A program made the translations under genes and the position numbers. A stretch of DNA of 64,000 bases, taken from positions 42,378 to 106,377 of the forward strand of contig JACVGT010000007.1 in assembly GCA_018992685.1 (NCBI GenBank), read 5' to 3'. The notes under the pieces were generated by a model, which saw only the letters and a program-made list of their open reading frames with translations, did no database searches and was not told where the DNA came from. Source of the stretch: Theionarchaea archaeon. Its GTDB lineage: Archaea > Methanobacteriota_B > Thermococci > Methanofastidiosales > SZ-28-30. Below are positions 3,797-55,068 of this stretch, one piece after another (the stretch's first letter is position 1; every line of letters starts with the position of its first letter).

Positions 3797-4465
3797 ATGA
3801 AAATGTCCAAGAAGGACCTGGCAAAAGTGATAGATCACACGCTGCTGGCTTCTACGGCAACGCAGGAACAGATTACAGTACTCTGTGAGGAGGGAAAAGA
3901 ACACGGATTTGCTTCTGTGTGCGTCAACAGTTGCTGGGTGTCTCTGTGCAAGAGTCTTCTCGAGAATTGTGAGGTAAAGGTATGCAGCGTTGTGGGGTTC
4001 CCCCTGGGCGCCATGGCTACCCCGGCCAAAGCATATGAAGCAGAAAGAGCGGTAAAGGATGGAGCCGATGAAATCGACATGGTTATGAATGTTGGGAAAT
4101 TTCTATCTGGGACTCCTGGGGATCTGATCTATGTCAAGAGTGATATCAAGGCTGTGGTAGAGGCTGCTTCAGGAAACCCTGTGAAAGTTATTCTGGAAAC
4201 TGGCCACCTATCAGATGAGCAGGTGGCGATGGCATGCAGGATCGCACAGGAAGCAGGAGCTCATTTTGTTAAAACGTCTACGGGATTTGGGCCTCCATTT
4301 GAGATGAAACATGTCACTTTGATGAGGAAAGCGGTGGGCGATACCATGGGTGTGAAGGCAGCAGGGGGCATAAAAACATATGAGAAGGCAGTGGAAGTCA
4401 TTCAGGCTGGAGCAAGCAGGATCGGAGCCAGCGCAGGAGTGGCTATTGTGAAGGCTGCTCTGTAG
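3797..4465 (+). CDS. deoC: Deoxyribose-phosphate aldolase
   Basis: A 222-residue class I aldolase that splits 2-deoxyribose 5-phosphate into glyceraldehyde 3-phosphate and acetaldehyde, the last step of deoxynucleoside breakdown. Visible motifs are VIDHTLL at the N terminus, GADEIDMVMNVG (with the conserved Asp), HFVKTSTGF (Schiff-base Lys) and VKAAGGIK (second active-site Lys). The frame is open 26 codons further upstream. I chose the ATG at 3797 because it gives the normal family length and follows a TTTTTAAAC box (about 3757-3765) and a GA-rich leader. The phosphohexomutase-family gene starts 9 bases after its stop, so the two are probably cotranscribed. A nucleoside importer lies a few kb away. 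Confidence 0.93.
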   Translation: MKMSKKDLAKVIDHTLLASTATQEQITVLCEEGKEHGFASVCVNSCWVSLCKSLLENCEVKVCSVVGFPLGAMATPAKAYEAERAVKDGADEIDMVMNVGKFLSGTPGDLIYVKSDIKAVVEAASGNPVKVILETGHLSDEQVAMACRIAQEAGAHFVKTSTGFGPPFEMKHVTLMRKAVGDTMGVKAAGGIKTYEKAVEVIQAGASRIGASAGVAIVKAAL

Positions 4466-4474
4466 GGTGGAGTC

Positions 4475-5860
4475 ATGAGAGGGCTTTTTGGGACCTCTGG
4501 GGTGCGTGGGCATACAACCAGTGAAATCACCCCACAACTGGCCATGGACATTGGAGGTGCAGTGGGTGCACTGATTGGAAGAGGAAAGAAGGCGTGCACA
4601 GGAAGAGATACGCGTTTCGGCTCACACATGCTGGAGCTGGCCGCACGTTCTGGATTGATGTCCCAGGGAATTGATGTCACAGAATGTGGTGTGGTTCCCA
4701 CTCCCGTCCTAGCTCACATGGTGAGAGAAGAAGCCGATTGCGGTATCATGATAACAGGGTCGCACCTCCCCCCAGACATGGTGGGAATTATACCCTTGTT
4801 GGAAGATGGGGCATATCTGCCTGATCAACAGGCCAGACTTGTGGAGGAGAGCATTTTACACCGGACATTTCATAAAACCAGAGTTGGAAATATGGGACTT
4901 GGTGGGCTGTATGAGGTGGCAGATTCTCTTTCCCGGTATAAAGAGAGACTCCTTTCTATGGTTGATGAAGATTCTATTGCTAAGAATGGATTTAAAGTGG
5001 CTGTTGACCCTGTAAATGGCACTGCCTGTGCGTTCCTGGCTGACATTCTAGGTTCCCTTGGATGTGAGGTTTCTGAAATAAATGGAGAACCTTCTGGAAT
5101 TCCAGGCCGATCTCCTGAGCCCCGAGCCTCTACGCTCACCGATCTCTGTGCACTGGTAAAGGAGAGTTCATTTGACCTCGGTGTTGGATTGGATACAGAT
5201 GCAGACCGTGTGGTCTTTGTCGATGAAAAGGGAACCCCTGTATCAGAGGATGTCATGGGAGTGATTTTTGCAGACCATGTCTTTCATGAACAGAAGGGGA
5301 TTCTTGTGACCCCAGTCAATTCGTCAGGTATTGTGGAATGGTTTGCCAGAACCAGAGATGTGAAGGTGGAATACTGCAAAATCGGGCAGCCTGCTACTGT
5401 GGAGGCTATAAGAAAGACTGGTGCAGCTTACAGCTATGAGGAATCAGGTAAATACTACTTTGCTGAAGAAGTGAACTGGTGTGACGGACTGCTGGCCACC
5501 CTGAAACTCCTGGAGATCCTTTCTCTCAATGATTCTACACTATCTCAGCTGGTGAATAGATACCCCCGGTTTTACCAGGTCAAACAGACTGTTGACCTTC
5601 TTCCGGAGAAGAAAGATGCAATCATGTCTCTTATCGAGAACCGTGTGCAGCAGGTTTTGGGAGACAACCAATCACGGATCGTAGAGATTGACGGTTACAA
5701 ACTGGTTTACCCTGATGATTCTTGGCTACTCTTGAGAGGGTCTGGTACGGAGCCAGTGCTCAGGATTTACTCTGACTCTCCAAACAGGAAAAGAGCTGAA
5801 ACCCTGGTGAAGAGAGGAATAACCCTTGTTAATAAAATCATGAACTCAAAGCTCGTCTGA
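4475..5860 (+). CDS. Phosphohexomutase-family protein (phosphoglucosamine mutase or phosphopentomutase)
   Basis: A 461-residue alpha-D-phosphohexomutase. It opens with LFGTSGVRG. The phosphoserine loop is ITGSHLPPDMVG, a variant of the usual TASHNP with the Ser and His kept. The metal loop is GLDTDADRVVFVDEKG, the sugar loop is EESGKYYF (usual form GEESGG), and the phosphate-binding loop is RGSGTEPVLRIY. The substrate cannot be read from sequence. Archaeal members act as phosphoglucosamine/phosphomanno-mutases, and one Thermococcus member acts as a phosphopentomutase with DeoC. The tight linkage to deoC (9-base gap, GGTGG before the ATG) makes phosphopentomutase a reasonable inference. Confidence 0.88.
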   Translation: MRGLFGTSGVRGHTTSEITPQLAMDIGGAVGALIGRGKKACTGRDTRFGSHMLELAARSGLMSQGIDVTECGVVPTPVLAHMVREEADCGIMITGSHLPPDMVGIIPLLEDGAYLPDQQARLVEESILHRTFHKTRVGNMGLGGLYEVADSLSRYKERLLSMVDEDSIAKNGFKVAVDPVNGTACAFLADILGSLGCEVSEINGEPSGIPGRSPEPRASTLTDLCALVKESSFDLGVGLDTDADRVVFVDEKGTPVSEDVMGVIFADHVFHEQKGILVTPVNSSGIVEWFARTRDVKVEYCKIGQPATVEAIRKTGAAYSYEESGKYYFAEEVNWCDGLLATLKLLEILSLNDSTLSQLVNRYPRFYQVKQTVDLLPEKKDAIMSLIENRVQQVLGDNQSRIVEIDGYKLVYPDDSWLLLRGSGTEPVLRIYSDSPNRKRAETLVKRGITLVNKIMNSKLV

Positions 5861-6527: not shown

Positions 6528-7448
6528 CTATTTCTTTCCCTTCTCGTAGTGTTTCCCAAGAGCTGCCGGTGGTACAGCTCTCTTCACTGCTCCAGCCAAG
6601 ACCAGAATAGTCAGAACATAGGGAATCATCTGAATGAACTGATTGGCAGCCACTGTCCCCTGCAATTTCATTTGCAGAGCATCAGTAAAACTGAAGAGAA
6701 GACTTGCTCCAAAGGCTCCTGCAGGGTTCCATTTGCCAAAGATGTTCGCCGCCAGAGCGATGAATCCTCTCCCTGCAGACATGTTTTGGCTGAACAGGTT
6801 CAACCATCCCAGGGACAGGTAGGCACCCCCCAACCCCGATAGCATGCCGCTGGCTGTTACAGATAAATACTGAATCCGGTGCACGTTGATTCCCACGGTA
6901 TCTGCAGCCTCTGGGTGCTCACCTACTGCCCTAATTCTCAATCCCAGAGGAGTCCTAAACATGATGACCCAGGCAGCAACAACAATCACAATCATGATGT
7001 ATACCAGAGGGTTTTGCTGGTCAAAGATATCCTTGAGGTAGGGAATGTCTCTGATCAGTGGGATGGACAAGGGCTTCAATCCGGAAACAGGGTCTGACGC
7101 TCCCCTATTTCCCCAGATGATCTGGAGCAACAGCGTGGTAAGCCCAAGAGAAAGAATATTCACTCCCACTCCACTGACGACCTGATTTGCTTTGAACTGG
7201 ATACATAGTACCGCATGCAGCAATCCAAAGGCCCCGCCTGCCAGGACTGCGCACAGCACACCGATCCAGGGATTTCCCAGAAAATGTGTGCCCACTACAC
7301 CAGCAAAAGCACCCATCAGGATCATGCCTTCCAGTCCGATATTAATGATACCACTGCGTTCTGAGTACGCGCCCCCGATGGAGGCCAGGGCAATAGGGGG
7401 AGATATCCTTAAGGTTGCACCCAGCAGTATGGCAATACTAGAAAGCAT
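6528..7448 (-). CDS. BMP-family nucleoside ABC transporter, permease 2
   Basis: A 306-residue polytopic membrane protein of the branched-chain/BMP permease family (NupQ/YufQ-like). Telling motifs are APPIALASIGGAYSERSG-like (here SPPIALASIGGAYSERSG), INIGLEGMILMGAF and FRTPLGLRIRAVGEHPEAAD, the cytoplasmic coupling loop. The ATG at 7448 is preceded by AAGGAGGG, a strong ribosome binding site. It overlaps the end of the permease 1 gene by 11 bases, so the two are translationally coupled. It forms the membrane channel with the other permease and the ATPase. The likely substrate is nucleosides, inferred from the family and from the nearby deoC. Confidence 0.88.
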   Translation of the reverse strand: MLSSIAILLGATLRISPPIALASIGGAYSERSGIINIGLEGMILMGAFAGVVGTHFLGNPWIGVLCAVLAGGAFGLLHAVLCIQFKANQVVSGVGVNILSLGLTTLLLQIIWGNRGASDPVSGLKPLSIPLIRDIPYLKDIFDQQNPLVYIMIVIVVAAWVIMFRTPLGLRIRAVGEHPEAADTVGINVHRIQYLSVTASGMLSGLGGAYLSLGWLNLFSQNMSAGRGFIALAANIFGKWNPAGAFGASLLFSFTDALQMKLQGTVAANQFIQMIPYVLTILVLAGAVKRAVPPAALGKHYEKGKK

Positions 7449-8517
7449 TGGCAATCCCTCCTTTCCTGATTTTCTTGAAGATTCTGAACATTTCAGGAGC
7501 TGCCACAAACAGTATCACGATACCCTGGATCACCACCACCAGATCTGTGGGGACATTGGTCATCTGTTTCATGACCATCCCTCCGTTCCGCAGAGCACCA
7601 AACAGCAAAGCACCCAGTACTACTCCCACAGGATGGTTTCTCCCCAGAACAGCAACAGCGATCCCGTCAAATCCGTACCCCGGGGAGAATCCGAAAATAA
7701 ACCGTTTGTGCAGTCCCAGTACCTCGCCTGATCCACCCAGTCCTGCCAGCATTCCTGATATGAACATCGATATGATAATGCTTTTCTGGACACTTATCCC
7801 CCCGTATTCTGCAGCTGTGGGGTTGAGTCCTACTGCTCTGATTTCGTATCCCAGGGTAGTCCTATACAGAATATAGTACGTGACACCGACGCAAATGAGA
7901 GCCACGATTATGGCTGCTGATAACTGGGTGGAGGGTACCAACCGTGGAAGCTGGGCTGATGGTGTAACAACATCAGTCTGAGCAATCCATCCTTCAGCCT
8001 TCAAAGGATAGTTGGCCAGATAGTTGCACAGGAGCACACCGATGTAATTCATCATAATGGTGGTAATCACTTCATGGGCACCCACCCTGGCTTTCAACAC
8101 ACTGGGCACCAGAGACCATGCACCACCTGCAAGGGCCCCGGCTCCCAGGGCCAAAGGAATGTGAAAGAACCAGGGAAGCCAGGCAAAGTTGATCCCTACC
8201 ACGGCAGCAGTAATGGCCCCAACGTACAGTTGTCCCTCACCACCAATGTTGAATAACCCACATCGAAAGGCGAAGGCCACGGTCAGCCCTGTAAAGATGA
8301 GGGGTGTTGCCCTTGTGAGGGTCTGGGCAAAATCATACGTACTGCCGAATGCACCTTCGTACAGTGCCTTGTATGCCTCAAGAGGCGATGAGCCTGCAAG
8401 ATATACAATCACTGCTCCCACCAAAAGGGCAGCAATAACAGCAATGATTGAGATAAAAATGTCCATCAGACTTTCTTTTTGAATAACCTGAGTTATTTTT
8501 ATTAATCGTGGATTCAT
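7438..8517 (-). CDS. BMP-family nucleoside ABC transporter, permease 1
   Basis: A 359-residue permease (NupP/YufP-like) with about eight to ten membrane segments. FRCGLFNIGGEGQLYVGAI and RTTLGYEIRAVGLNPTAAEYGG (the ABC coupling loop) are hallmark motifs. The start ATG at 8517 overlaps the stop of the ATPase gene (ATGA), and its own end overlaps permease 2. The three genes form one operon in the order ATPase, permease, permease, as in bacterial nucleoside/BMP importers. Confidence 0.88.
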   Translation of the reverse strand: MNPRLIKITQVIQKESLMDIFISIIAVIAALLVGAVIVYLAGSSPLEAYKALYEGAFGSTYDFAQTLTRATPLIFTGLTVAFAFRCGLFNIGGEGQLYVGAITAAVVGINFAWLPWFFHIPLALGAGALAGGAWSLVPSVLKARVGAHEVITTIMMNYIGVLLCNYLANYPLKAEGWIAQTDVVTPSAQLPRLVPSTQLSAAIIVALICVGVTYYILYRTTLGYEIRAVGLNPTAAEYGGISVQKSIIISMFISGMLAGLGGSGEVLGLHKRFIFGFSPGYGFDGIAVAVLGRNHPVGVVLGALLFGALRNGGMVMKQMTNVPTDLVVVIQGIVILFVAAPEMFRIFKKIRKGGIANAF

Positions 8518-10034
8518 GCGTGTCCACCTGCCATCAATAATCCCAGTTCTTCTTCAGTGGTCTTCTGAGGATCTCGCTCTCCCACAATTTTCCCTTCGTA
8601 GATGACAGCGATCCTGTCAGAGAGACAGCGAACCTCATCTAAATCTGCAGAAATGAGAAGTATGGCCTTGTCCTTTTTCCTCATGCTGAGAAGGGTTTCA
8701 TGGATGAACTCGATTGCGCCCACGTCGAGACCTCTGGTAGGCTGTGAAGCGATAATAATCTCGGGCTCTCTTCCCAGTTCTCTGGCCACAATCACTTTCT
8801 GCTGGTTTCCACCTGACAGATATTTGACCTCACTGTGTACCCCAGTTCCTCTAATGTCAAAGGTCTCCACCAGCTCGGACGCATATGAATCCACCTTATC
8901 ATATTCCATTCTGAACCCGCGGGAAAAAGGAGCCTTAAAGTGGGATCCCAGTATCAGATTCTCGGATAGAGAGAAATCCTGGATGAGCCCTCTCTTCTGG
9001 CGATCTTCAGGGATGTGGGATACTCCTGCGTTGATGAAGTCCCTCGGGGAGGAATGTGTTAGATCTTCCCCGTTTACAAGAATCTTCCCCCCGCTTGGGC
9101 TTCGCAGTCCCGTTGCCGTTTCTGCCAGTTCCAACTGGCCATTGCCTTCAACTCCCGCAATGCCAAGAATCTCACCTTTCCGCAGTTCCAATGTTATCCC
9201 CTGTAGGGCTTTCACTCCTCTCTCATTGTATGCTTCCAGGTTCTGCATCTGCATCACAGCCCCCTTTGGGGGGTGAGGAGGTTTTTCCACTACCAGGCAG
9301 ACTTCTCTGCCCACCATCATTCTTGCCAGACTGGCAACATCTGTTTCCCCGGTGTGAACTGTTCCCACCAGTTGTCCTTTTCTCAGCACGGTGATGCGGT
9401 CACAGGTCGCCATGGGTTCCTTCAGTTTGTGGGTGATGAAAATGATAGTCTTTCCTTCTTCTTTTAACGATTTCATAACTTTGAACAGTTCTTCCCCTTC
9501 TTGTGGGGTCAAGACTGCTGTTGGTTCATCCAGAATGAGAATTTCAGCTCCCCGGTACAATGCTTTCAGAATCTCTACTCGCTGTTCAATGCCTACTGAT
9601 ATATCCTGGATCTTGGCTCTGGGGTCTACAGCAAGACCATACCGTTTTGAGATTTCTTCAACATCTCGTGCTGCCTTTTCTCTGTCCATGAGGAAATGAG
9701 TCTCCGGCTCAACACCCAGGACAACGTTCTCAGCCACAGTGAAGGGAGGCACTAACATGAAGTGCTGGTGGATCATGCCAATACCCAGTGAGATCGCATC
9801 ATTGGGATTTGTTATCGCAGTGGGCTTACCATTAACAGAAATTTCACCAGAATCAGGCTGGTATAGCCCATACAAGACGTTCATTAACGTGGTCTTTCCC
9901 GCACCGTTTTCTCCAAGAAGAGCATGAATTTCTCCTTTTCTAACTGAAAAAGTAATATCGTCATTCGCCAGAACACCAGGGAAGCGCTTGGTTATGTGTT
10001 GCATCTCCACAGCATTGATGGGTTCTGCATTCAT
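8514..10034 (-). CDS. BMP-family nucleoside ABC transporter, duplicated ATPase
   Basis: A protein of about 506 residues with two fused ABC domains (NupO/YufO-like). The first domain has Walker A GENGAGKTT, an ISVGIEQRVEILKAL signature region and Walker B ILILDEPTAVLTPQE. The second has GVEGNGQLELAE in place of a good Walker A, the signature LSGGNQQKVIVAREL and IIASQPTRGLDVGA, as is usual for the family, in which the second site is degenerate. I favour the ATG at 10034 because a TATA-like CCTTTTTAAGGG (10054-10065) lies about 26 bases upstream. In-frame ATGs at 10040 and 10043 are alternatives. It starts the transporter operon and has its own promoter separate from the upstream RiPP genes. Confidence 0.9.
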   Translation of the reverse strand: MNAEPINAVEMQHITKRFPGVLANDDITFSVRKGEIHALLGENGAGKTTLMNVLYGLYQPDSGEISVNGKPTAITNPNDAISLGIGMIHQHFMLVPPFTVAENVVLGVEPETHFLMDREKAARDVEEISKRYGLAVDPRAKIQDISVGIEQRVEILKALYRGAEILILDEPTAVLTPQEGEELFKVMKSLKEEGKTIIFITHKLKEPMATCDRITVLRKGQLVGTVHTGETDVASLARMMVGREVCLVVEKPPHPPKGAVMQMQNLEAYNERGVKALQGITLELRKGEILGIAGVEGNGQLELAETATGLRSPSGGKILVNGEDLTHSSPRDFINAGVSHIPEDRQKRGLIQDFSLSENLILGSHFKAPFSRGFRMEYDKVDSYASELVETFDIRGTGVHSEVKYLSGGNQQKVIVARELGREPEIIIASQPTRGLDVGAIEFIHETLLSMRKKDKAILLISADLDEVRCLSDRIAVIYEGKIVGERDPQKTTEEELGLLMAGGHA

Positions 10035-10053
10035 TGCCATCATAAGCGTATTT

Positions 10054-10065
10054 CCCTTAAAAAGG
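10054..10065 (-). promoter_or_regulatory. TATA box of the ABC transporter operon
   Basis: CCTTTTTAAGGG is centred about 26 bases before the ATG at 10034. It lies in the 123-base gap between the last RiPP enzyme gene and the transporter operon, so the transporter can be expressed independently. Confidence 0.5.
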
Positions 10066-10157
10066 CTACCGGTTGCATCTCTGGTGGCAGTATTTGATGG
10101 GCGAATTCTCACGATAACAGCTTAGGCAGTTCCTGCAAAATCAGACACCTCGCCCCT

Positions 10158-12002
10158 CTACTTCCTCATGGCTGTCTTTCTTTCATGATTTTCGGTTCTA
10201 GCCTCTGCCCCTGGCACTCTTTTGTCTGCTCTCAGCACTGAGATGATGTTCTCGAGAGACTGGTCATAGTACAATACGCCCCTTTCTCTGAGAATCTCCA
10301 GTATGTGCAAAAGCTCTTTCTCCTCCAGATGGGAAAAGTGTTGCTGTACCTGGGTGAATGACGTTATGCTGTCACAGAAAACTAGAAGGTCGGTCTCGTC
10401 TCTGCTAAAGGTACAGGAAAGAGACCTTGATCCTTTTTCCTTAAAGGCAGAACAATCGGGATATTCTGTCCACTGATAATCGCTTCCAGCCCGGGAATAA
10501 AACTGCAGAAGTCTTTGAAAGGTGTTCCACAAAAGGTAGTGGCGAATTCTCCCTGCAAAGAATCCAAAGAATTCAAATCGTTCCCCCTCTGGCAGCTGCA
10601 AGACAGATGCGATTTCTGCCCACATGGGGTCTTTGTTGTAGGCATCCCTTTCATGTTCTGACATCTCATTGTAATATGGTGATCCCTTGTACAGTGTGAA
10701 GTACTTGGGGACAATGGAATACTTCCTCAGGAAGAATCTCAGAAATCTCAAGTTCACACAACTCTCCAGGACGTCTTCCTCAGTTTCAGGTGGCGTCTCT
10801 GCTACAAAATTCCCTTTGATCTCGAGGTTGTGTTGATCCCCGAGCTTGAGAGCCTGTATATTGTGGGCAAAAGAGTGTCTCTTTTCCATTTTCTTCAAGA
10901 GAGCATCAGTCATTGCTTCAAATCCGATCTGCACGATTTCAAAACAAACCTTTTTCATGGCACGTGCTGTATCGGGGTTGATGAAGATTGGAGATGCTTC
11001 TGCAAAAAGGCGGTAGGGACGTCCTCTTCTTTCAGAACTTTCCACAATCAGGGCAAGCAGATGGTGGAATCGCTTCTTGTTACCGGGGAGTTCAGTATCT
11101 ACAAATACGAATGTGTCACCACCGTGTCTCTTGGACTGGAATTCCAGTTCTTCGACAATGTTCTCAGGAGATCGAGCCCGATATGAGAATTCCTCATTCA
11201 GAACGCAAAATTTGCACCTGTTCCAGGGGCAGGAGCGCGACCCCCAAATGGGGATGATGACCCGCATGTCTTCATGAATGTGGGTTTTCAGTGCCGCAAA
11301 ATAGTCTGTGTGGTCTGCAAATGGGTATGAATCCAGATCACAGCTTTCAGAATGCTTGTTTGTTGAGATGATGGCGGCACCATCCCGGTACACCAGATGA
11401 GGGATCTCGGTGAACGTTCCCTCTCGTATCCCCTGAATCAGATGAACCAAAGGGTATTCTCCCTCCCCCCATACAGCGTAGTCAGCCAGCTCAAATACCT
11501 TCATAAAGGCGTGAGCCTGTTCATCATTGCGAATCCCTCCAATGACGATCTGTATTTCGGGGTTTAATTCTTTCAGTCGCCTCATTACATAAGAGCTCAG
11601 AAGCCACTGGTAGGTCTTTAGAGTAAATCCCGCCAGAGGTTCTTTGTAGAGGCCATTTTGGTATATGTAGTCATCGATTTTTGTTCGAAGTGTGTCTACA
11701 AAGGGAGGTATTTTCCCCTGATCAAAAAAGGGTGAAAAATACTGGTCGAGAACAGTCGTCTCGTGATGGGCACCTGAGAGATGTCTCACTGTATACAGAA
11801 CGGGAGTATTAAGAGAGGACAAGGATGAAAACACAGGATAGTCCCCAATGTGATCCTGGAGTTCTGACAGCTCCTCAGCAAGTATTAGATTCCAGTAGAT
11901 ATTTGTCACAGAGATTCCCCTTGATTGCAGGAACCCTTTCAGATATCCCAAAGCAGGATTGGGAATATCGTAACTGTAGGGGGGCAAACAGTTTAGTATC
12001 AT
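10158..12002 (-). CDS. B12-type radical SAM enzyme, RiPP maturation (rSAM 1-like)
   Basis: A 614-residue enzyme. Residues 1-200 look like a cobalamin-binding-type Rossmann domain (N-terminal MILNCLPPYSYDIPNPALGY; IQIVIGGIRND; YAVWGEGEYPLVHLI). The radical SAM core follows near residue 250 with GSRSCPWNRCKFCVLNEEF; its three Cys are spaced C-x4-C-x2-C and would hold the [4Fe-4S] cluster. Further stretches (YRARSPENIVEEL, IGFEAMTDALLKKMEKRH, NIQALKL) resemble the RiPP-maturation radical SAM protein 1 family. About 150 C-terminal residues are unassigned. The ATG overlaps the stop of the preceding SPASM gene (ATGA). It probably modifies the 35-residue precursor upstream; the chemistry, for example C-methylation, is not predictable. 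Confidence 0.8.
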   Translation of the reverse strand: MILNCLPPYSYDIPNPALGYLKGFLQSRGISVTNIYWNLILAEELSELQDHIGDYPVFSSLSSLNTPVLYTVRHLSGAHHETTVLDQYFSPFFDQGKIPPFVDTLRTKIDDYIYQNGLYKEPLAGFTLKTYQWLLSSYVMRRLKELNPEIQIVIGGIRNDEQAHAFMKVFELADYAVWGEGEYPLVHLIQGIREGTFTEIPHLVYRDGAAIISTNKHSESCDLDSYPFADHTDYFAALKTHIHEDMRVIIPIWGSRSCPWNRCKFCVLNEEFSYRARSPENIVEELEFQSKRHGGDTFVFVDTELPGNKKRFHHLLALIVESSERRGRPYRLFAEASPIFINPDTARAMKKVCFEIVQIGFEAMTDALLKKMEKRHSFAHNIQALKLGDQHNLEIKGNFVAETPPETEEDVLESCVNLRFLRFFLRKYSIVPKYFTLYKGSPYYNEMSEHERDAYNKDPMWAEIASVLQLPEGERFEFFGFFAGRIRHYLLWNTFQRLLQFYSRAGSDYQWTEYPDCSAFKEKGSRSLSCTFSRDETDLLVFCDSITSFTQVQQHFSHLEEKELLHILEILRERGVLYYDQSLENIISVLRADKRVPGAEARTENHERKTAMRK

Positions 12003-13327
12003 TCATGGGCCTCCTTTTGCTTACTGACATATGTTTTCACCTGTGGCAGCCCGAAAACCTGCCTGGTAAAATCCACGGTGAAACAGCCAGGAGCATCCAG
12101 TGTTCCTTTCTCTCTCAATGCAATGGCAGGGCATCCCCCCATACACCGGGGAAGCATGACGCAGGCTTTACACTCAGTAATGGCCAGGGGGTTGCGGGCC
12201 ATCCACGAGTAGTATGCAGGTGTTTTGTCCAGAGAACCACGAGAGTTCAGAGACCCCACAGCATGGCGGGTGTCTCCTACCAAAGACATGCACTTGTAGA
12301 CACGGCCATCCACATTGATGATGTGAAACCAATCAGTAATACCAGCACACAAGGAAAAGTACACACCAATTCCAAAAGGGAGTGTGGTGAATCCTTTGTG
12401 AGCAGCCATTTCCATGACTTCACTGAAGAGATCTGAAGTCCCCGGATATCCGTAAGAACTGTAGTAGTGGGTACAGTAATCCATGCGGGGAGTAACCGTC
12501 CCAAAGTAGGTATGGGCCTTCTCAAGGCCAGCTTCTCTCAACATTTCAAGAAAGGTAATGATATTGTCTTCCCATACGTTAATTCGCATAATCAGATTCA
12601 TGCCATGATCTTCAACACATTGGGCACCCTCTACCACTGATTGCAGGCTGCTTGTCTCATCAGGGAAAACCCTCCTGGTGTGGTGGTAGTACTCAGGTGC
12701 ATCAAAAGTGATATGAATATCTGCTACCGTGAACTGTGAGAGGTTGTCGAGTCCTTCAGGAGTAAGGAGAGTTCCATTGGTGAAGAGCTTGATGAGGAGA
12801 GAAATACCTGCTTCACTACATGCCTCTTGCAGGGTTTCAGTAAGAGAGGTTATGCACTCTTGATTCAAGAGTGGTTCTCCTCCGTAAAGACTCACAAAGA
12901 GCGTGTCAATGCCTCGTACGATCTGATTCTCAGCAAAGGTTACCCCTCTTTCTGCTACCTTCTTGCTCATATGCCCAGTGCAGGCAGAAGAATTCCTGTA
13001 GCAGTACCTACAGTTCAAGTTGCATTCGTGCGTGACAATGAAGTTCAAGAATGCAACTCTCCCAAGAGGAGAGCCCCGATATCCTGTAGAGGGGAGGCAC
13101 CACTTCTTCTGTTCCAAGGAAGCCTGTATCAAGTTCATCTCTTGACCGGTGTCCTCTATGAGAAGTCCCTGCTTTGATAGTGCTTCAATAATCTCAGGGG
13201 AGCCTTTTCCGGTCATGAGGACGTCATACATTTCAGAATCAATCACTGTGAGAGACCCGTTCAATGTATTGTATACAAGGAAATCCTCTCTAAATGGGAT
13301 AATAAAGCAGTACTGTGATCTCTGCAT
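11999..13327 (-). CDS. SPASM radical SAM peptide maturase 2
   Basis: A 442-residue radical SAM/SPASM protein. The N-terminal 80 residues carry YNTLNGSLTVIDSEMYDVL, a pattern typical of peptide-binding N-terminal domains of RiPP maturases. The core cluster motif is HECNLNCRYCYRNS (C-x3-C-x2-C), followed by LYGGEPLLN and TNGTLLT. The C-terminal SPASM region supplies CAGITDW, VYKCMS, CKACVMLPRCMGGCPA and PGC for auxiliary iron-sulphur clusters. It is a paralogue of the gene upstream. The start is the ATG at 13327, five bases after that gene's stop; a TTG at 13336 would overlap it. The product is predicted to install thioether or C-C crosslinks in a peptide substrate. Confidence 0.85.
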   Translation of the reverse strand: MQRSQYCFIIPFREDFLVYNTLNGSLTVIDSEMYDVLMTGKGSPEIIEALSKQGLLIEDTGQEMNLIQASLEQKKWCLPSTGYRGSPLGRVAFLNFIVTHECNLNCRYCYRNSSACTGHMSKKVAERGVTFAENQIVRGIDTLFVSLYGGEPLLNQECITSLTETLQEACSEAGISLLIKLFTNGTLLTPEGLDNLSQFTVADIHITFDAPEYYHHTRRVFPDETSSLQSVVEGAQCVEDHGMNLIMRINVWEDNIITFLEMLREAGLEKAHTYFGTVTPRMDYCTHYYSSYGYPGTSDLFSEVMEMAAHKGFTTLPFGIGVYFSLCAGITDWFHIINVDGRVYKCMSLVGDTRHAVGSLNSRGSLDKTPAYYSWMARNPLAITECKACVMLPRCMGGCPAIALREKGTLDAPGCFTVDFTRQVFGLPQVKTYVSKQKEAHE

Positions 13328-13332
13328 AATAA

Positions 13333-14676
13333 TCAAACCCAGATGATCTTTCCCGCCTTGAACCGGTCAGGAAGCTTCTTTTCGAGGTACCAACGAAGCT
13401 GATGTTTCATTTCCTGGTACGGTGCATAGCATCCAACTGCGTGGAATGTCCCATGCTTTTCATATGCAACAGCAGCACATCCTCCCCCACATGAGGGTAG
13501 CATCTGGCACTCACGACATTCCGGTATCTGCAGGGGGTCTCTGCTCATCCAGTCGTAGTAGGTCCATGTATACTCTGGTATGGTACCGTCTTCTGAAATA
13601 TGACCAATGGAATGGTTTTTCTGCCCCACGAAGGTGAGACACTTGTAAAGATCTGCATGAGGATCTATGATGAAGGTTCCTTCCCCTAGGAATCCACAAA
13701 AGACGTGAGCTGGCTTGTGGGTGCGAATGACAGCAGCCGCTTGACCTTTTTGATCCACAATATCTCTGAATTCAGCAAGTACCTCACGGGCTTCTTCCTC
13801 TTTAATGCACTTGGAGTAGTCCTTACATGCTTGAGTTGATGCCCCCACTGTACCACAGCGCACAGGGACATTCTTGAATCCCCTCTCCTGAAGCTCGTCC
13901 AGCAGCTCACCGATGAACGGTCTGCTTTCAGAATCCACGTTCACCCTAAAGCTCACTCCGACGTTTTGGTCCTGCAGAATGTGAGCTGATTGCATCATGT
14001 CATCAAAGGTACCTCCTCCACTCTTGTAGAATCGTTTGGTGTCGTGGATGCGTTTGGGACCATCCAGCGTGATCTGTACGTAGTCTGTGTGGTAGCGCTT
14101 CAACGTTTCAGCTATTTCAGGTGTGACCAGAGTACCATTTGTCACCATCATTGTCACGTATGAGATGCCGTGGTCTTCTGCCCAGGAAAAGCAGGAATCC
14201 ATAATGTACTCAGAATCGTCGAATCTGAGCAGTGGTTCACCACCATACAGCGACACAGAAAATTCCCGCGCGTGAGTGTCTTCCACGTATTTCTTTATGA
14301 ATTTCACAGTTCTTTCCCTGGTGTCAGCATTCATTGTCCCGCGGAATAGCTCTCCTTTTCCTTCATAGCAGTATGGACATGCTAGATTGCAGGCATATGT
14401 CGTTATGAGCATGAAATGGGGAAAATCCACCGTGTATTTCCTGTATTCATATCCTACCTTGAATTTTCGAGATTCATCAAAATCATCTTCTATGATTACC
14501 TTGAGCGCTGCAAGAGATTTGAACAAGTCAGAATCCAGAATGTCAATATTCCCGGCTTTCAAAGCTTCCTTCAGCTCTTCATCTATTCCTATTACTGCAC
14601 CACTCATCATGTTGGCCAACAGGTATTCTCCAGGAGTCTCTGTGGGGATAACTATGTTGAAGTTTGACACTTTCAT
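13333..14676 (-). CDS. SPASM radical SAM peptide maturase 1
   Basis: A 447-residue radical SAM/SPASM protein. An N-terminal domain (YLLANMMSGAVIGIDEEL) precedes the cluster motif YACNLACPYCYEGKGE, LYGGEPLLRF, TNGTLVTPE and QITLDGPKRIHD. The SPASM part has FCGFLG, YKCLTF, CRECQMLPSCGGGCAA and VGCY. It is about the same size and architecture as its neighbour, so a duplication and division of labour on one substrate is plausible. The ATG at 14676 follows GAGGTG at a normal distance; a GTG nine bases further upstream is less likely. A terminator-like hairpin separates it from the precursor peptide gene, 54 bases upstream. Confidence 0.87.
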   Translation of the reverse strand: MKVSNFNIVIPTETPGEYLLANMMSGAVIGIDEELKEALKAGNIDILDSDLFKSLAALKVIIEDDFDESRKFKVGYEYRKYTVDFPHFMLITTYACNLACPYCYEGKGELFRGTMNADTRERTVKFIKKYVEDTHAREFSVSLYGGEPLLRFDDSEYIMDSCFSWAEDHGISYVTMMVTNGTLVTPEIAETLKRYHTDYVQITLDGPKRIHDTKRFYKSGGGTFDDMMQSAHILQDQNVGVSFRVNVDSESRPFIGELLDELQERGFKNVPVRCGTVGASTQACKDYSKCIKEEEAREVLAEFRDIVDQKGQAAAVIRTHKPAHVFCGFLGEGTFIIDPHADLYKCLTFVGQKNHSIGHISEDGTIPEYTWTYYDWMSRDPLQIPECRECQMLPSCGGGCAAVAYEKHGTFHAVGCYAPYQEMKHQLRWYLEKKLPDRFKAGKIIWV

Positions 14677-14698
14677 GAGGTTCACCTCAGGAAAAAAG

Positions 14699-14720
14699 AA
14701 AGGCAGGTTGAACTGCCTTT
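14699..14720 (-). terminator. Hairpin plus T-run between precursor gene and maturase operon
   Basis: On the minus strand AGGCAG, a six-base loop and CTGCCT form a stem that extends to eight pairs with flanking A/T, followed by TTCTTTTTT. It lies just after the precursor stop codon and before the ribosome binding site of the first maturase. It could end most transcripts and leave the peptide mRNA in excess over the enzymes. Confidence 0.55.
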
Positions 14721-14730
14721 TGTTATAGAC

Positions 14731-14838
14731 TTACACATAGGGGTGGCAAATTCTGCAGCACCAGGAACCAGTTCCTTCCGTGATGCACAGAGGCTCCATG
14801 ATTTGCTCTTCTGCTTCGATGAGGATAGTCATGTTCAT
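14731..14838 (-). CDS. Putative RiPP precursor peptide, 35 residues, Cys-rich C terminus
   Basis: A 35-residue open frame found by reading the minus strand upstream of the maturases. The N-terminal part (MNMTILIEAEEQIMEP) is acidic and leader-like. C18 starts LCITEGTG, and the C terminus is SWCCRICHPYV with C27, C28 and C31 plus W26, H32, P33 and Y34. A TATA-like ACTTTATATAGC (14857-14868) is centred about 24 bases before the ATG, giving a leaderless mRNA; a second TATA (about 14878-14888) lies further up. A hairpin/T-run follows the gene, then three radical SAM enzymes. Size, Cys content, promoter and context all fit a ribosomally made, post-translationally modified peptide. The Gly-rich EGTG may mark the leader-core boundary (inference). 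A second in-frame ATG at 14832 would give 33 residues. Confidence 0.75.
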   Translation of the reverse strand: MNMTILIEAEEQIMEPLCITEGTGSWCCRICHPYV

Positions 14839-14856
14839 AGATTCCACTTCCTATTG

Positions 14857-14868
14857 CTATATAAAGTT
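14857..14868 (-). promoter_or_regulatory. TATA box of the RiPP precursor gene
   Basis: ACTTTATATAGC on the minus strand is centred about 24 bases before the ATG at 14838. A second TATA-like AAGTATATAAAG occurs about 20 bases further upstream and could give a transcript with a short leader. Confidence 0.6.
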
Positions 14869-14899
14869 TCTCTTTATCTTTATATACTTTTCTATTCAT

Positions 14900-15154
14900 A
14901 TGAATTCTACTAATTTCGTCACTCTTATAGTAATCAAATAAGAGCAAATGCAGAAGCCAGTAGTCTTTAAAGACAATATCTCTTGATATTTTGGACTACT
15001 TTCGTCCATGTGAGGTTAAATGCAGAGATTCTCAACCGAAATGCCCCCTTTTCTCACTTTTGTAAAAAGTGATAATGTTCGGTAGAAGAGCTCTCCCTCA
15101 CAGATTTTGCAGAATCTGGTAATTGCACCTGCGATCATGAGCTGGCCCGAGAAC
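14900..15154. other. Gap upstream of the RiPP cassette with two short inverted repeats
   Basis: Between the binding-protein gene and the precursor gene. It contains CACTTTTGTAAAAAGTG (about 15056-15072) and AGATTTTGCAGAATCT (about 15101-15116), both inverted repeats that could be operators or small RNA stems. A 40-codon frame at 15016-15138 (minus) has no promoter or ribosome binding site. Confidence 0.35.
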
Positions 15155-15181
15155 AAAAAAGTAAAAAGTAAAAAGAAGAAG
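15155..15181 (-). terminator. T-rich terminator after the binding lipoprotein gene
   Basis: Immediately after the stop codon the minus strand reads a succession of T-runs (TTCTTCTTTTTAC, TTTTTAC, TTTTTTG), the usual archaeal terminator form. It separates the lipoprotein gene from the RiPP genes. Confidence 0.55.
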
Positions 15182-15183
15182 TA

Positions 15184-16224
15184 TTAATCCCAGGTGTATT
15201 CACCGGCCTCGTCAATACCAGTGGGAACCTTGATTTCGCCAGATGCGATCTGCTCCCTGTAGTCTTCAATGATGTCTCGTATGTCATTAGGCACGTGCTC
15301 GCAAGCACCAACACCATTCTCTTTTGCGCCAAAGCTCTGTATGCCGCCTGCAAAAGTCCCGTCGATTACCTGCCGTATGGTCTCGTATACAGCTACATCC
15401 ACACGCTTTATCATACTGCATAAGAAGGTCGTTACCGGTACTCCCTCAATGGTGTCGCACTGATCCGCATCTACGCCAATGACCAATCCACCACGTTCAA
15501 AAGCCGCCTGGATAGCTCCCAAGCCAGATCTTCCGGCAGCAGCGAACACGATGTCTGCCTCTCCGTCATACTGAGCAAGGGCAAGCTCCTTTCCTTTTGC
15601 AGGGTCTACCCAGTCGCCCACATACTTCCAGGTGACCTCAACATCTGGATTGACGTACTCGGCTCCAAACTTGTAGCCAGCCAGGAATTTTCGAATCAAG
15701 GGTATGTCCATTCCACCTACAAATCCAATCATATCAGTTTCAGTTTTCAGACCAGCAGCTGCTCCTACCAGGAAACTACCTTCGTTTTCCCTGAATACAA
15801 GAGAAGCCACATTAGGTTTGTCTACCACCATGTCCACGATCGCAAACTTCTGGTCGGGGTATTCATCTGCAACAACAGTGATGGCATCTGCCTGATCAAA
15901 TCCTATACCTATTATCAGTGCATATTCCCCGGACTTGGCGTACTGCCTGTGGAATCCTTCGTACTCAGCGATGGCTGTAGGTTCAACATAGTCAAATTCA
16001 ATGCCGAAATCATCTCTAGCCTTCTTGATACCTACGTAACAACTATCATTGAAGCTCTTGTCTCCTAGTCCACCAGTGGCAAAGACAACAGCAATTTTCA
16101 ATTCGGGGGGTGGGGGTGTAGAAGTTGGTGTCGGAGTTGTGGTTTCTTCCTCCTGTCCGATGCATCCCAATGTAAGGGAGCACAAAACTACCAGGGTGAA
16201 CAGCATCTTAATACTTTTGTTCAT
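15184..16224 (-). CDS. BMP-family nucleoside-binding lipoprotein
   Basis: A 346-residue surface lipoprotein, the substrate receptor for the ABC importer encoded 5 kb downstream. A signal peptide ends in the lipobox LTLGC (Cys at residue 21), followed by a Thr/Pro linker (TTTPTPTSTPPPPE). The mature domain shows family motifs: VVFATGGLGDKSFNDSCYVG, IIGIGFDQADAI, FAIVDMVVD, GSFLVGAAAG, MIGFVGGMDIPLI, VGDWVDPAKGKELA and VIGVDADQ. The ATG at 16224 follows GGAGGG; the open frame extends 52 codons further upstream, but without a ribosome binding site. A GATTTAAATACGT box lies at about 16257-16269. Confidence 0.9.
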   Translation of the reverse strand: MNKSIKMLFTLVVLCSLTLGCIGQEEETTTPTPTSTPPPPELKIAVVFATGGLGDKSFNDSCYVGIKKARDDFGIEFDYVEPTAIAEYEGFHRQYAKSGEYALIIGIGFDQADAITVVADEYPDQKFAIVDMVVDKPNVASLVFRENEGSFLVGAAAGLKTETDMIGFVGGMDIPLIRKFLAGYKFGAEYVNPDVEVTWKYVGDWVDPAKGKELALAQYDGEADIVFAAAGRSGLGAIQAAFERGGLVIGVDADQCDTIEGVPVTTFLCSMIKRVDVAVYETIRQVIDGTFAGGIQSFGAKENGVGACEHVPNDIRDIIEDYREQIASGEIKVPTGIDEAGEYTWD

Positions 16225-40030: not shown

Positions 40031-41107
40031 TCACGTTACCAGCTCTTCTACAATCATGGTGAGGACCTCAGACAGTTTCTCCCCTACACCCTGTAGCACT
40101 CTCAAATCCTCGATTTCACGAATGTCTTCATCCAAGTCGTCAAGGAGCCAGGCCACCTTTCTGTACGGCCAGGCTCTCTTTGGAGATTCCAGCTCGATGC
40201 GATATGCTGTATCAAATAGTCTTTCTGCCACCCTTTGATTGAAATTGAGACAGTAGCGAGGGATGCGATCTTTCAATTCATATGCCTCTATCATGTTGAT
40301 TGCTCTTCGTGAAATGTCTGCAAAATACTCCAGAATGTTGGAGTCATAGAGAGTCTCGTAATCAGAGACAAGCTCTGGAAACGTGGCTCTCAAGAGCTTG
40401 AAATATCGTACTCTCACATTGTCATCCAGAGTCAATCCACCCACCAGCACAAAGGTGGCCCCATGTTCTTTTGCTGCTCTGATTACATCTTCCATCAGAT
40501 CTGGTGAATCGGTAATATAGGGGAGAACTGGCATGAGATTCACCCCGGTGAGAATGCCCGCCTCTGAGATCTCTTTCATTGCCTTCAATCGCCGTTCTGG
40601 AGAAGGGGCTCCTGGTTCAAAGAGACCAGACAGCTCCTCATCAACAGTGGAAAAACTGAATGAAACGCAGGCCCATGTCCTCTCGTTGATCTCCTGCAGA
40701 ACATCAATGTCTTTCACCACCAAGTCAGATTTTTCTATAATATGCACGGGAAACTCAGAGTCTCTTATGACCTCCAGCATTTTTCTGGAGATGCAGAATT
40801 TCCTTTCAGCAGGCTGATAATCTCCCGTGGCAATTACCCCTTTTTTTGCCTTCTTAAGCTCTTTTTCAAGTAATTGAGCAGCATTACGTTTGACTTTTAT
40901 GATTCTCGAAAAATCATCTGGTGTATCTGTATGCAGGTATTTATCCTGCCTTGCATAACAGTATTCGCAGGCATGCTGGCATCCTACGTACGGATGGGCG
41001 GAATACTTGTTCCAGAACCAGGAATCTGCATGCTTATATGTATTGAGGATTCTTTTTGTATCGTACAGGACGTACGGAGATCCCCCATTCAGCGTGGTCT
41101 GTTTCAT
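40031..41107 (-). CDS. Photoproduct lyase-like radical SAM protein with C-terminal helix-hairpin-helix
   Basis: A 358-residue radical SAM protein of the SPL/Rv2578c-like group. The cluster motif is HPYVGCQHACEYCYARQDKY (C-x3-C-x2-C), with VIATGDYQPAERKF, HIIEKSDLVVKDIDVL, FSTVDEELSGLFEPGAPSPE and GVNLMPVLPYITDS. The C-terminal 25 residues (LRVLQGVGEKLSEVLTMIVE) form a helix-hairpin-helix-like element, hinting at DNA contact. True spore photoproduct lyase activity is not implied. The start overlaps the stop of the oxidoreductase gamma gene (ATGA), so it is the third gene of that operon. Confidence 0.8.
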   Translation of the reverse strand: MKQTTLNGGSPYVLYDTKRILNTYKHADSWFWNKYSAHPYVGCQHACEYCYARQDKYLHTDTPDDFSRIIKVKRNAAQLLEKELKKAKKGVIATGDYQPAERKFCISRKMLEVIRDSEFPVHIIEKSDLVVKDIDVLQEINERTWACVSFSFSTVDEELSGLFEPGAPSPERRLKAMKEISEAGILTGVNLMPVLPYITDSPDLMEDVIRAAKEHGATFVLVGGLTLDDNVRVRYFKLLRATFPELVSDYETLYDSNILEYFADISRRAINMIEAYELKDRIPRYCLNFNQRVAERLFDTAYRIELESPKRAWPYRKVAWLLDDLDEDIREIEDLRVLQGVGEKLSEVLTMIVEELVT

Positions 41108-41649
41108 CTCCCCAGAGCGGCCAGAACATCTTCTGCAGCCTTGAACCCCACTTCCAGTGCTTTCTTGTTGAGATCAATGGTCCTGGGTGGAACACTGTCA
41201 AAAACTGCTTTCTGCATGGCTTCCACTGAAACAACACCTGTGAGTCTGGTCAGGCTTCCCAGCATAATGATATTCGCCACAATCTTTCTTCCCAGATCTT
41301 CAGCCAGAGCGGTGAACTCAATCCGTATGGGATCGAACTCGCCTGTGTCAATGACCAGGGAAGGGTCCACTATGATGGTGGCATCTTTTTTCAGATCATC
41401 AGTGTACTTGTCAAAAGCGGGCTGACTCATGGCCACCAGAATGTCTGCCTCCATGACACCTGGAAAGGCAATAGGTTCATCTGAGATTATCACTTCTGAT
41501 CTGGACGCACCGCCTCGCGCTTCGGGACCGTAGGACTGGGTTTGCACTGAGTAGTAATCAGAGTACACAGAAGCAGCCTTTCCTAGGATCATGCCAGCAA
41601 GCACGATACCCTGACCACCGAATCCACACACACGAATTTCTTTCCTCAT
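41104..41649 (-). CDS. korG: 2-oxoacid:ferredoxin oxidoreductase, gamma subunit
   Basis: A 181-residue gamma subunit. Motifs are CGFGGQGIVLAGMILGKAAS, SYGPEARGGASRSEVIISD and DILVAMSQPAFDKY, typical of the 2-oxoglutarate or ketoisovalerate enzymes with separate gamma chains. ATG at 41649 overlaps the stop of the beta-subunit gene (ATGA). No alpha subunit or ferredoxin subunit lies in this operon. The korG name is by family resemblance. Confidence 0.88.
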   Translation of the reverse strand: MRKEIRVCGFGGQGIVLAGMILGKAASVYSDYYSVQTQSYGPEARGGASRSEVIISDEPIAFPGVMEADILVAMSQPAFDKYTDDLKKDATIIVDPSLVIDTGEFDPIRIEFTALAEDLGRKIVANIIMLGSLTRLTGVVSVEAMQKAVFDSVPPRTIDLNKKALEVGFKAAEDVLAALGR

Positions 41650-42491
41650 GATTTCATCCTCTCCACCAGTAACTTCCATTCATCCATGAATTCTGGTTTT
41701 TCGATGTCCACAAACTCTCCAATCGTGATCTTCTTCCGGGCTTTGTCTTTTTCTTCTTCCGTCCCGTACTTCATAATTCTATCATATTCCTCAACCAGAA
41801 TTACATTCTCCTTGTACCAATTCCACATGGACTCAATATCCCGCAGCTTGTTATACCGTCCATAGGCTGTAGGGCAGGGGGATAATATCTCAATAAAGGA
41901 AAATCCTTTTCTCTTCAAACCTTTCTCAATGGACTTTATGGGTCTATATGGGTGTGTGACAGACCACCTGGCAACGTAAGGCGCTCCTGCTGCCACTGCC
42001 AGAAGAGACATGTCAAAAGGATGCTCCACATTCCCGTACGGGGTGGTGGTTGTGTTGGCAAACCGGGGTGTGGTGGGAGCCACCTGACCTCCCGTCATCC
42101 CGTAGGTGAAGTTGTTGACAGCAATTACAGTGACGTCTATATTCCGTCTGATTGCATGAATGAAATGATTTCCTCCAATTCCCACACAGTCTCCATCCCC
42201 TGTGAATACTACAATATTCAGATCGGGCTCAGCCGCGTGGACACCCGTGGCGAATGCCAGAGCTCTCCCGTGGGTAGTGTGCAGCCCATCAGCTCTCACA
42301 TATCCGGGCAACCGTGAAGAGCAGCCAATGCCGCTGACAAAGATGGTTTCTGTAATGTCCAACCCCACATTGTCAATAGCCTGTATGGTGTAGTGGAGGA
42401 CGTTCCCGATCCCACATCCTGTACAGAATATGGTGGGAAACATGGCTTCTCTGAGATACTTCTCTCTGAGCTCAAGTGTGTTGGTTAACAT
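41646..42491 (-). CDS. korB: 2-oxoacid:ferredoxin oxidoreductase, beta (TPP-binding) subunit
   Basis: A 281-residue thiamine-diphosphate subunit. FCTGCGIGNVLHY, FVSGIGCSSRLPGY, GLHTTHGRALAFATG, VVFTGDGDCVGIGGNH (TPP/Mg site) and AVNNFTYGMTGGQVAPTTP are 2-oxoglutarate:ferredoxin oxidoreductase-like. The ATG at 42491 is about 29 bases after the TATA CCTTTATAAAT; another ATG at 42512 lies too close to it. The catalytic alpha chain must come from elsewhere in the genome. Confidence 0.88.
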   Translation of the reverse strand: MLTNTLELREKYLREAMFPTIFCTGCGIGNVLHYTIQAIDNVGLDITETIFVSGIGCSSRLPGYVRADGLHTTHGRALAFATGVHAAEPDLNIVVFTGDGDCVGIGGNHFIHAIRRNIDVTVIAVNNFTYGMTGGQVAPTTPRFANTTTTPYGNVEHPFDMSLLAVAAGAPYVARWSVTHPYRPIKSIEKGLKRKGFSFIEILSPCPTAYGRYNKLRDIESMWNWYKENVILVEEYDRIMKYGTEEEKDKARKKITIGEFVDIEKPEFMDEWKLLVERMKS

Positions 42492-42514
42492 ACGGAGGGA
42501 GTTTCTTCTCATTG

Positions 42515-52732: not shown

Positions 52733-53010
52733 GTGAAGCCAAATTTAGAGGGGCACATGATCTACCCCCATGTTCCATTTCTGTCACGCATGAATTGACA
52801 AAGACAGGAAACTGGAGAAATTCAAAGCCTGTGTTCCACAAGGAGAAATGTATCCAGTGCGGTATCTGCTGGAAAGTGTGTCCAAATGCCTGCATTAAGT
52901 TGGGTGAATATCCTGAATGGGACATGGACTACTGCAAGGGCTGTGCTGTTTGTGCAGAGGAATGCCCGAAGGACGCCATTGAGATGGAAGATGAACGGGT
53001 GATGGTATGA
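52729..53010 (+). CDS. vorD: 2-oxoacid:ferredoxin oxidoreductase delta (ferredoxin) subunit, VOR-type set
   Basis: A 93-residue subunit with two [4Fe-4S] motifs: [18 protein letters not shown] and [16 protein letters not shown] (C-x2-C-x2-C-x3-C-P each). The N-terminal 35 residues ([18 protein letters not shown]) are typical for delta subunits. It passes electrons from the TPP site to ferredoxin. It overlaps both neighbours by ATGA. Confidence 0.93.
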
Positions 53011-54161
53011 GTACCGTCAAGGTCATAACTGGAAATCATGCAGCCTCTTTCGGGGCCAGAGATTCCCGGGCAGAGGTCATTGCTGCCTATCCCATAACTC
53101 CACAGACACAGATCGTGGAACTCCTCAGTGAATTCTGTGCTGATGGGACCTTGAAGGCCAAGTTCATCAAGGTGGAGTCAGAACATTCTGCTATGGCAGC
53201 CTGTATTGGAGCCTCAGCTGCAGGGGTCAGGGCATATACTGCAACATCTGCCCACGGCCTTGCGCTCATGCATGAGATGCTGCACTGGGCAGCCAATGGA
53301 AGACATCCTGTCGTAATGGCCAATGTCAACCGTGCCATGGGCCCCCCCTGGAGTATCTGGACTGACCAGAATGATTCACTCGCTCAGAGAGACACGGGAT
53401 GGCTGCAATTCTACTGCGAGAGCAACCAGGAAGTGTATGATACCACCATGATTGCTTTCAAGGCATGCGAGCAGGTCCTCCTTCCTGGCATGCTGGTATT
53501 AGATGCCTTTATTCTGTCCCACACGTATGAACCGGTGGAAATGCCGGATCAGGAGCTCATTGATGAGTTTCTTCCTCCCTTTGATCCACCATACAAGATG
53601 GACCTGGATGATGCACGGGCCTTTGGTGCTCTGACAACGCCAGAGTGGTACATGGAATTGCGATACCTGATTCAGGAGGCCCACGAGAAGGCACTCGTTA
53701 CGGTACGGGAAGTGGAAAAAGAGTTCGGAGAGACTTTTGGGCGTTACTACGGCACACTGGAACTCTACCGGTGTGATGATGCTGAAGAGGTCATCCTCAT
53801 AGCGGGATCAACTGCTTCGACAGCCAAGGACGCTGTAGACATCATGCGGAAAGGAGGCAGGAAGATTGGACTGGCCCGTATCAAATTGTTCAGACCATTT
53901 CCCAACGAGGAGATCAGGGATATTGCATCTCGCGTGAATAAGATGATTGTGATTGACCGGAACGTCTCGTTTGGAAATCAGGGTATCTTCTTCAATGAGA
54001 TTAAAGCCAGTCTCTACAGTGCCAAGAACAGACCGCCTGTGTACGGATTCGTAGCCGGCCTAGGAGGCAGAGACATGAAGATAGATGATATTACGGGAAT
54101 TGTGGAACAGGCTGATACCTGTGACATTGAAGAAATTCTCTGGTGGGGGGTGAAATTATGA
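53007..54161 (+). CDS. vorA: 2-ketoisovalerate:ferredoxin oxidoreductase alpha subunit
   Basis: A 384-residue alpha chain. AYPITPQTQIVELLSEF, VESEHSAMAACIGASAAGVR and NRAMGPPWSIWTDQNDSLAQ mark it as the VOR type rather than POR; the latter has NRALSAPIN here. Residues VILIAGSTASTAKDAVDIMR start the transketolase C-terminal-like domain. Oxidises branched-chain 2-oxoacids to acyl-CoA. Confidence 0.9.
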   Translation: MSTVKVITGNHAASFGARDSRAEVIAAYPITPQTQIVELLSEFCADGTLKAKFIKVESEHSAMAACIGASAAGVRAYTATSAHGLALMHEMLHWAANGRHPVVMANVNRAMGPPWSIWTDQNDSLAQRDTGWLQFYCESNQEVYDTTMIAFKACEQVLLPGMLVLDAFILSHTYEPVEMPDQELIDEFLPPFDPPYKMDLDDARAFGALTTPEWYMELRYLIQEAHEKALVTVREVEKEFGETFGRYYGTLELYRCDDAEEVILIAGSTASTAKDAVDIMRKGGRKIGLARIKLFRPFPNEEIRDIASRVNKMIVIDRNVSFGNQGIFFNEIKASLYSAKNRPPVYGFVAGLGGRDMKIDDITGIVEQADTCDIEEILWWGVKL

Positions 54162-55060: not shown

Positions 55061-55068
55061 GTGATACA

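Follow-up and report, generated by a model that had tools for sequence, protein, structure and literature searches.

What is made by a tiny cysteine-rich reading frame followed by three radical SAM genes in an archaeon? This question was raised by a locus in a 64,000-nucleotide stretch (the window) of Theionarchaea archaeon contig JACVGT010000007.1, positions 42,378 to 106,377, and was addressed by comparison with a second species of the same genus (G001). G001 was deposited as Theionarchaea archaeon SZ_28-30, in agreement with the archaeal host named in an initial annotation of this DNA. The locus is best read as a cassette for a ribosomally synthesized and post-translationally modified peptide (RiPP), in which a 35-residue precursor would be cross-linked by a pair of SPASM enzymes and methylated by a B12 enzyme; we put the probability of this reading at about 0.72. 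The cassette consists of the following genes.

14731-14838, minus strand: precursor peptide gene, 35 amino acids, MNMTILIEAEEQIMEPLCITEGTGSWCCRICHPYV (conservation in G001, dN/dS and chance-frame shuffles)
13333-14676, minus strand: S1, SPASM radical SAM peptide maturase with a predicted N-terminal RRE-type domain (Pfam and NCBIfam, cysteine sets, structure model)
11999-13336, minus strand: S2, second SPASM radical SAM maturase, a paralogue of S1 (Pfam and NCBIfam, cysteine alignment)
10158-12002, minus strand: B12-type radical SAM enzyme, probable peptide C-methyltransferase (TIGR03975 below cut-off, fold of the model)

A conserved precursor peptide gene

The 35-codon frame is a real gene, and the decisive evidence is its conservation across species. 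The G001 peptide was identical at 34 of 35 residues (97%), with R29K as the sole change. At the codon level, four synonymous differences and one nonsynonymous difference were found, giving a ratio of nonsynonymous to synonymous substitution rates (dN/dS) of 0.053, and the stop codon had changed from TAA to TGA with the terminal residue unchanged. Identity to G001 over the 250 alignment columns upstream of the gene was 74%. Purifying selection on the peptide, together with a stop swap that kept the end in place, showed that the frame is a gene, and this cross-species conservation ruled out a chance frame. When the 507-nucleotide spacer was subjected to first-order Markov shuffling, 1% of the shuffled spacers yielded an ATG frame of 25 to 80 amino acids with a CC pair and at least three Cys in its second half. 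The RiPP-type precursor proposed in the initial annotation was thus upheld by purifying selection and by synteny in the second species; a lack of any conserved frame in relatives, which it had named as grounds for giving up the proposal, was not observed.

Cys residues occupy positions 18, 27, 28 and 31, as read from the sequence. The last three had been named before, and Cys18 had been overlooked. The core probably starts at about residue 23. A hidden Markov model search with all four proteins, suggested earlier as a check, found no Pfam or NCBIfam model matching the precursor and placed the enzymes below the cut-offs of named families. No match to the precursor pattern was found in the viral contigs searched. 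Two further core-pattern matches in the genome (C8 and C35, with one or two mismatches) were rejected, as neither gave a matching peptide frame.

The maturase genes and their enzymes

S1 was listed as an open reading frame with a GTG start at 14685; its likelier start is the ATG at 14676, which has GAGGTGA upstream. Likewise, S2 was listed with a TTG start at 13336 and likely starts at the ATG at 13327. Stops and starts overlapped at S1/S2 (with the listed TTG start) and at S2/B12 (4 nucleotides), showing that the coupled starts are real. The makeup of the cassette described in the initial annotation, a 35-residue precursor with two paralogous SPASM genes and a B12 radical SAM gene, was confirmed by the sequence and these overlaps. 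S1 and S2 shared approximately 28-29% identity. The order of the four genes was kept in G001, with protein identities of 92% for S1, 82% for S2 and 84% for the B12 enzyme. In a maturase tree, S1 and S2 grouped with other archaeal maturases and were long separated (inner supports were low).

Both S1 and S2 matched the Pfam family Radical_SAM, and alignment revealed in each the radical SAM CX3CX2C motif and the full Cys set of the SPASM auxiliary clusters (C96, C100, C103, C327, C346, C387, C390, C396, C400 and C416 in S1; the same set in S2). The best NCBIfam model for both was CefB (NF038107), which aligned nearly end to end with scores of 383.1 and 218.6 bits for S1 and S2, respectively, against a curated cut-off of 600. 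Cys recurs at every fifth residue in the CefA/CefB system, unlike the spacing of the four Cys here. The model of PapB-type ranthipeptide maturases (freyrasin, NF047865) placed S1 and S2 in the same broad SPASM group, with 161 and 112 bits, respectively, missing the cut-off of 340. The links made by PapB run between Cys and either Asp or Glu, and Cys-X3-Asp/Glu is the best studied SPASM thioether (PMC9413430). PapA-type precursors bear this motif, whereas the core in the window does not. S1 scored 99.3 bits with the SCIFF model TIGR03974, for which the cut-off is 425.

The structure model of S1 had a pLDDT of 88.2. The structure-match lists show some families only, and families beyond them cannot be excluded; among those shown, the model had the same layout of N-terminal domain, radical SAM barrel and SPASM domain as CteB, the SCIFF thioether maturase (PDB 5wgg/5why). 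This match had a Z of 27.5 over 405 residues and ran from residue 4 to 438, N-terminal domain included. However, identity to CteB was 19-21%, and the SCIFF precursor has six Cys in 45 residues versus four in 35 here. The match to anSME had a higher Z (29) but started at residue 84. The N terminus of the S1 model showed the strand-strand-strand-helix-helix-helix order of RRE domains and is predicted to be a leader-binding domain of this type; Pfam PqqD gave no match. By homology, S2 probably has such a domain as well.

The B12 enzyme matched the profile of the RiPP C-methyltransferases (TIGR03975) over its full length (residues 6-577), scoring 163.4 bits against a curated cut-off of 281.85. Its cluster motif, CX4CX2C, was a further difference, and was invariant across nine members of the enzyme's own B12 family. 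Its structure model (pLDDT 83.5) aligned with OxsB, TsrM, MgmA, CysS and TokK at Z 19-21 over approximately 360-420 residues, predicting that a B12-binding domain precedes the radical SAM barrel, as in cobalamin-dependent radical SAM enzymes. The Pfam B12-binding match was below gathering. The enzyme is a probable peptide C-methyltransferase.

In the same model, the C-terminal 90 residues (window 10203-10505) followed an RRE-like strand-strand-strand-helix-helix-helix order. An hhalign comparison with the PqqD-type domains of these genomes gave a probability of 22% and Pfam PqqD did not match, so that an RRE at this end is suggestive only.

Putative promoter, predicted hairpin and proposed pathway

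Two further elements were recognized around the precursor gene.

14878-14886, minus strand: TATA-like box TATATAAAG of the precursor gene, read from the sequence, approximately 44 nucleotides before the ATG
14692-14720, minus strand: hairpin and T-tract between the precursor and S1, with an 8-bp stem at 14699-14720 (predicted fold)

The TATA-like box had a counterpart in G001 at the same place, TATTTAAAG, and is the putative promoter of the precursor gene. The hairpin fold had a z of -1.6, which is weak by itself, and the hairpin and T-tract did not differ between the window and G001. They probably act as a partial terminator. The precursor had been described as directly followed by the maturases; these do come next, but the spacer with this conserved hairpin and T-tract lies between.

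In the proposed pathway, the precursor would be transcribed from its own promoter and in excess over the enzymes, because the hairpin and T-tract would stop part of the transcription. A single peptide would then be the substrate of all three enzymes. Its acidic leader would be held by the predicted RRE-type domain of S1, and probably by that of S2. Using 5'-deoxyadenosyl radicals, S1 and S2 would join nearby residues to one or more of the Cys27, Cys28 and Cys31 thiols, through a thioether or another bond to carbon. The B12 enzyme would put one or more methyl groups on an unactivated carbon of the core, and a protease encoded outside the cassette would free this core, which may correspond to about TGSWCCRICHPYV. 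The calculated [M+H]+ is 4013.81 for the unmodified 35-mer and 1524.65 for this core. Serial modification by the three enzymes on Cys27, Cys28, Cys31 and possibly Trp26, His32 or Tyr34, as put forward in the initial annotation, is a fair hypothesis.

Related maturase loci

Approximately six further loci of S1-related SPASM genes, mostly pairs, were found in the genome, along with four additional members of the B12 family. Candidate Cys-rich precursors were present at several of the related maturase loci, and one pair was kept in G001. This co-occurrence, another check suggested at the outset, speaks for the RiPP cassette; the related cassettes strengthen the RiPP reading and make the single cassette less exceptional. 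Across the two genomes, eight loci of the B12 family could be assessed; by reading, seven of these lay near other radical SAM genes, one of them also with a PqqD-type domain.

The loci varied in their layout. At L014 in the window's own genome (C1, 310166-310231 and 310541-310636, minus strand), two small genes in tandem encode peptides with a CMCC core, MYTKAEIKEISMEIDQCMCCAAAPIDNIGVVA and MYTNAKIEEISVEIDQCMCCAFIAD, and both copies had counterparts in G001 (L142, 4391-4477 and 4765-4872). An MFS transporter gene and a gene of the SPASM type adjoin this tandem. At L049, a candidate precursor in which CC occurs twice, NVCCYNDTDGDYYCC, lay at 4212-4349; the genes after it, extending to 9456, comprise a radical SAM pair, one PqqD-type gene and one for a B12 radical SAM enzyme. 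The candidate precursor MINVPMVFEGPALLANTMVPLGRGTNVCCYNDTDGDYYCCIKTEVL stands ahead of this gene set. L049 thus repeats, within one genome, the combination of a radical SAM pair with a B12 gene; it was looked for in G001 and not found. A 75-amino-acid frame at L010 (6883-7110, minus strand), just upstream of a SPASM pair, contained exact 27-bp repeats (5.5 copies) encoding five CALEVQPTF repeats, and possibly encodes a precursor with several cores. Around a SPASM pair at L035 in G001 (1845-2314 and 5423-5686) were several frames that contain Cys and resemble one another (MIARLIEPGN..., MLAELVEPGI..., MAKLIESGN...), possibly precursors of one related set. A 73-amino-acid Cys-rich frame (L036, 8030-8251), from a different family of the class, lay directly 5' of a CefB-like maturase and was matched by no NCBIfam precursor model. 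A TTG frame (MTTDTQ...), alike upstream of the maturases in L037 and L034, could not be separated from chance or antisense reading and was left unclaimed.

Clusters of the radical SAM type (ranthipeptide, sactipeptide) have been predicted widely in archaea (PMC12144867). Every archaeal product given there as validated, in the work itself or in its background, is a lanthipeptide; radical SAM products are left for the future, and the text makes no mention of Theionarchaea (PMC12144867). In the literature searched, we found no RiPP described from Theionarchaea and no described product of archaeal radical SAM-modified peptides. The kind of cassette is already known, while its precursor has no family model and each enzyme falls short of the nearest named family. 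The novelty claimed in the initial annotation stood with respect to the precursor, for which Pfam and NCBIfam hold no family, but not for the cassette as a whole, which is one of approximately seven related loci and of a kind predicted before.

Weighing the explanations

Several points weigh against the RiPP cassette. Among the 115 genomes of the class that were searched, the precursor was present in only 2, both from this genus, and a phylum-level search returned the same number; since only two genomes hold the system, the conservation evidence is a single comparison between one species pair. S1, S2 and the B12 enzyme all fall under the cut-offs of the named families. The cassette contains no protease or dedicated exporter gene, and no product or transcript of it is known. 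Further, the core has no Asp or Glu after Cys27, and C18-X2-E21 stands alone near the leader/core border. A PapB-type Cys-X3-Asp/Glu bond is thus impossible in the core, so that the acceptors would be other residues, or Cys18 and Glu21 of the leader would take part.

Other explanations were less probable. The frame could be a regulatory leader peptide whose Trp-Cys-Cys-Arg-Ile-Cys run would form, with the hairpin and T-tract, a Cys/Trp attenuator, the maturases acting elsewhere. Clustered Cys and Trp codons in a short frame ahead of a conserved hairpin with a T-tract would suit this explanation. However, conservation spanned nearly all residues, beyond the Cys and Trp codons, and different Cys-rich frames occurred at the other maturase loci, two of which (C1 and C3) were followed by T-rich stretches. 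To our knowledge, ribosome-controlled attenuation of this type has not been established in archaea, and we regard an attenuator as highly improbable. It is also quite unlikely, if slightly less so, that the true substrate of the maturases, be it protein or peptide, is encoded at another site, with the frame specifying a conserved small protein that has nothing to do with them. Some SPASM enzymes do modify proteins; anSME was a close structural match and a quinohemoprotein maturase was among the NCBIfam matches. Yet S1 matched the peptide maturase CteB over its whole length, whereas the anSME match lacked the N-terminal part, and the Cys-rich peptide next to S1 is conserved and has parallel loci in the genome.

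A narrower doubt concerns the B12 enzyme, which may be a mere neighbour that methylates another substrate while S1 and S2 modify the peptide. Members of its family were found past an opposite-strand gene from SPASM genes (L038) and with no radical SAM neighbour seen (L052). The overlap of the B12 gene with S2, an order kept in both species, and the nearness of most of its relatives to other radical SAM genes argue for a shared pathway, and a separate role appears unlikely. The RiPP cassette with all three enzymes is the reading we prefer.

Transporter genes around the cassette

The cassette lies inside a BMP/ABC transporter gene set, which the initial annotation had overlooked.

15184-16224, minus strand: BMP/PnrA-like substrate-binding lipoprotein gene (bmp), flanking upstream (Pfam Bmp, 2.9e-68; 91% identical in G001)
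8514-10043, minus strand: two-domain ABC ATPase gene of this transporter, flanking downstream (named by sequence and position)
6528-8517: two permease genes after the ATPase gene (named by sequence and position)

At E 1e-25, no second bmp gene was detected in the genome. Other genomes of the class, belonging to a single family that is probably Thermococcaceae, provided 20 loci in which bmp was directly followed by the ATPase gene; in the seven loci read, the latter started approximately 25-70 nucleotides past the bmp stop. In the window (8514-16224) and in G001, by contrast, the RiPP cassette split the two genes, and their adjacency in the 20 related-family loci indicated that the cassette sits in the bmp/ATPase junction. 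Any functional tie between transporter and cassette is hypothetical: bmp ended in a T-tract, the precursor gene has a TATA-like box of its own, and the ATPase gene was preceded in both species by a TATA-like sequence, CTTTTTAAGGG.

A more specific outcome can be imagined, although we consider it doubtful. Serial action of the three enzymes on a core of approximately 10-13 residues would yield a compact C-methylated multicycle, with adjacent Cys joined to non-acidic side chains (those of Trp, His, Tyr or Ile). Such a molecule would be conserved and functional (a metal carrier, cofactor or signal) and not a bacteriocin, and it would be taken up by the BMP importer.

Elsewhere in the window (41104-42512 and 53007-58015), several gene sets resembling 2-oxoacid:ferredoxin oxidoreductase subunits lay close together, by reading only.

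Significance

Since the cassette is compact, with one nearly invariant precursor and well-predicted enzyme folds, it is testable by heterologous expression. Cross-links in its core that need no acidic acceptor would widen the known range of such SPASM enzymes. A genuine tie to the transporter would point to an archaeal RiPP being taken up. Since the genome carries approximately six other maturase loci of related type, the genus of this sediment archaeon of the Theionarchaea is a reservoir of such systems.

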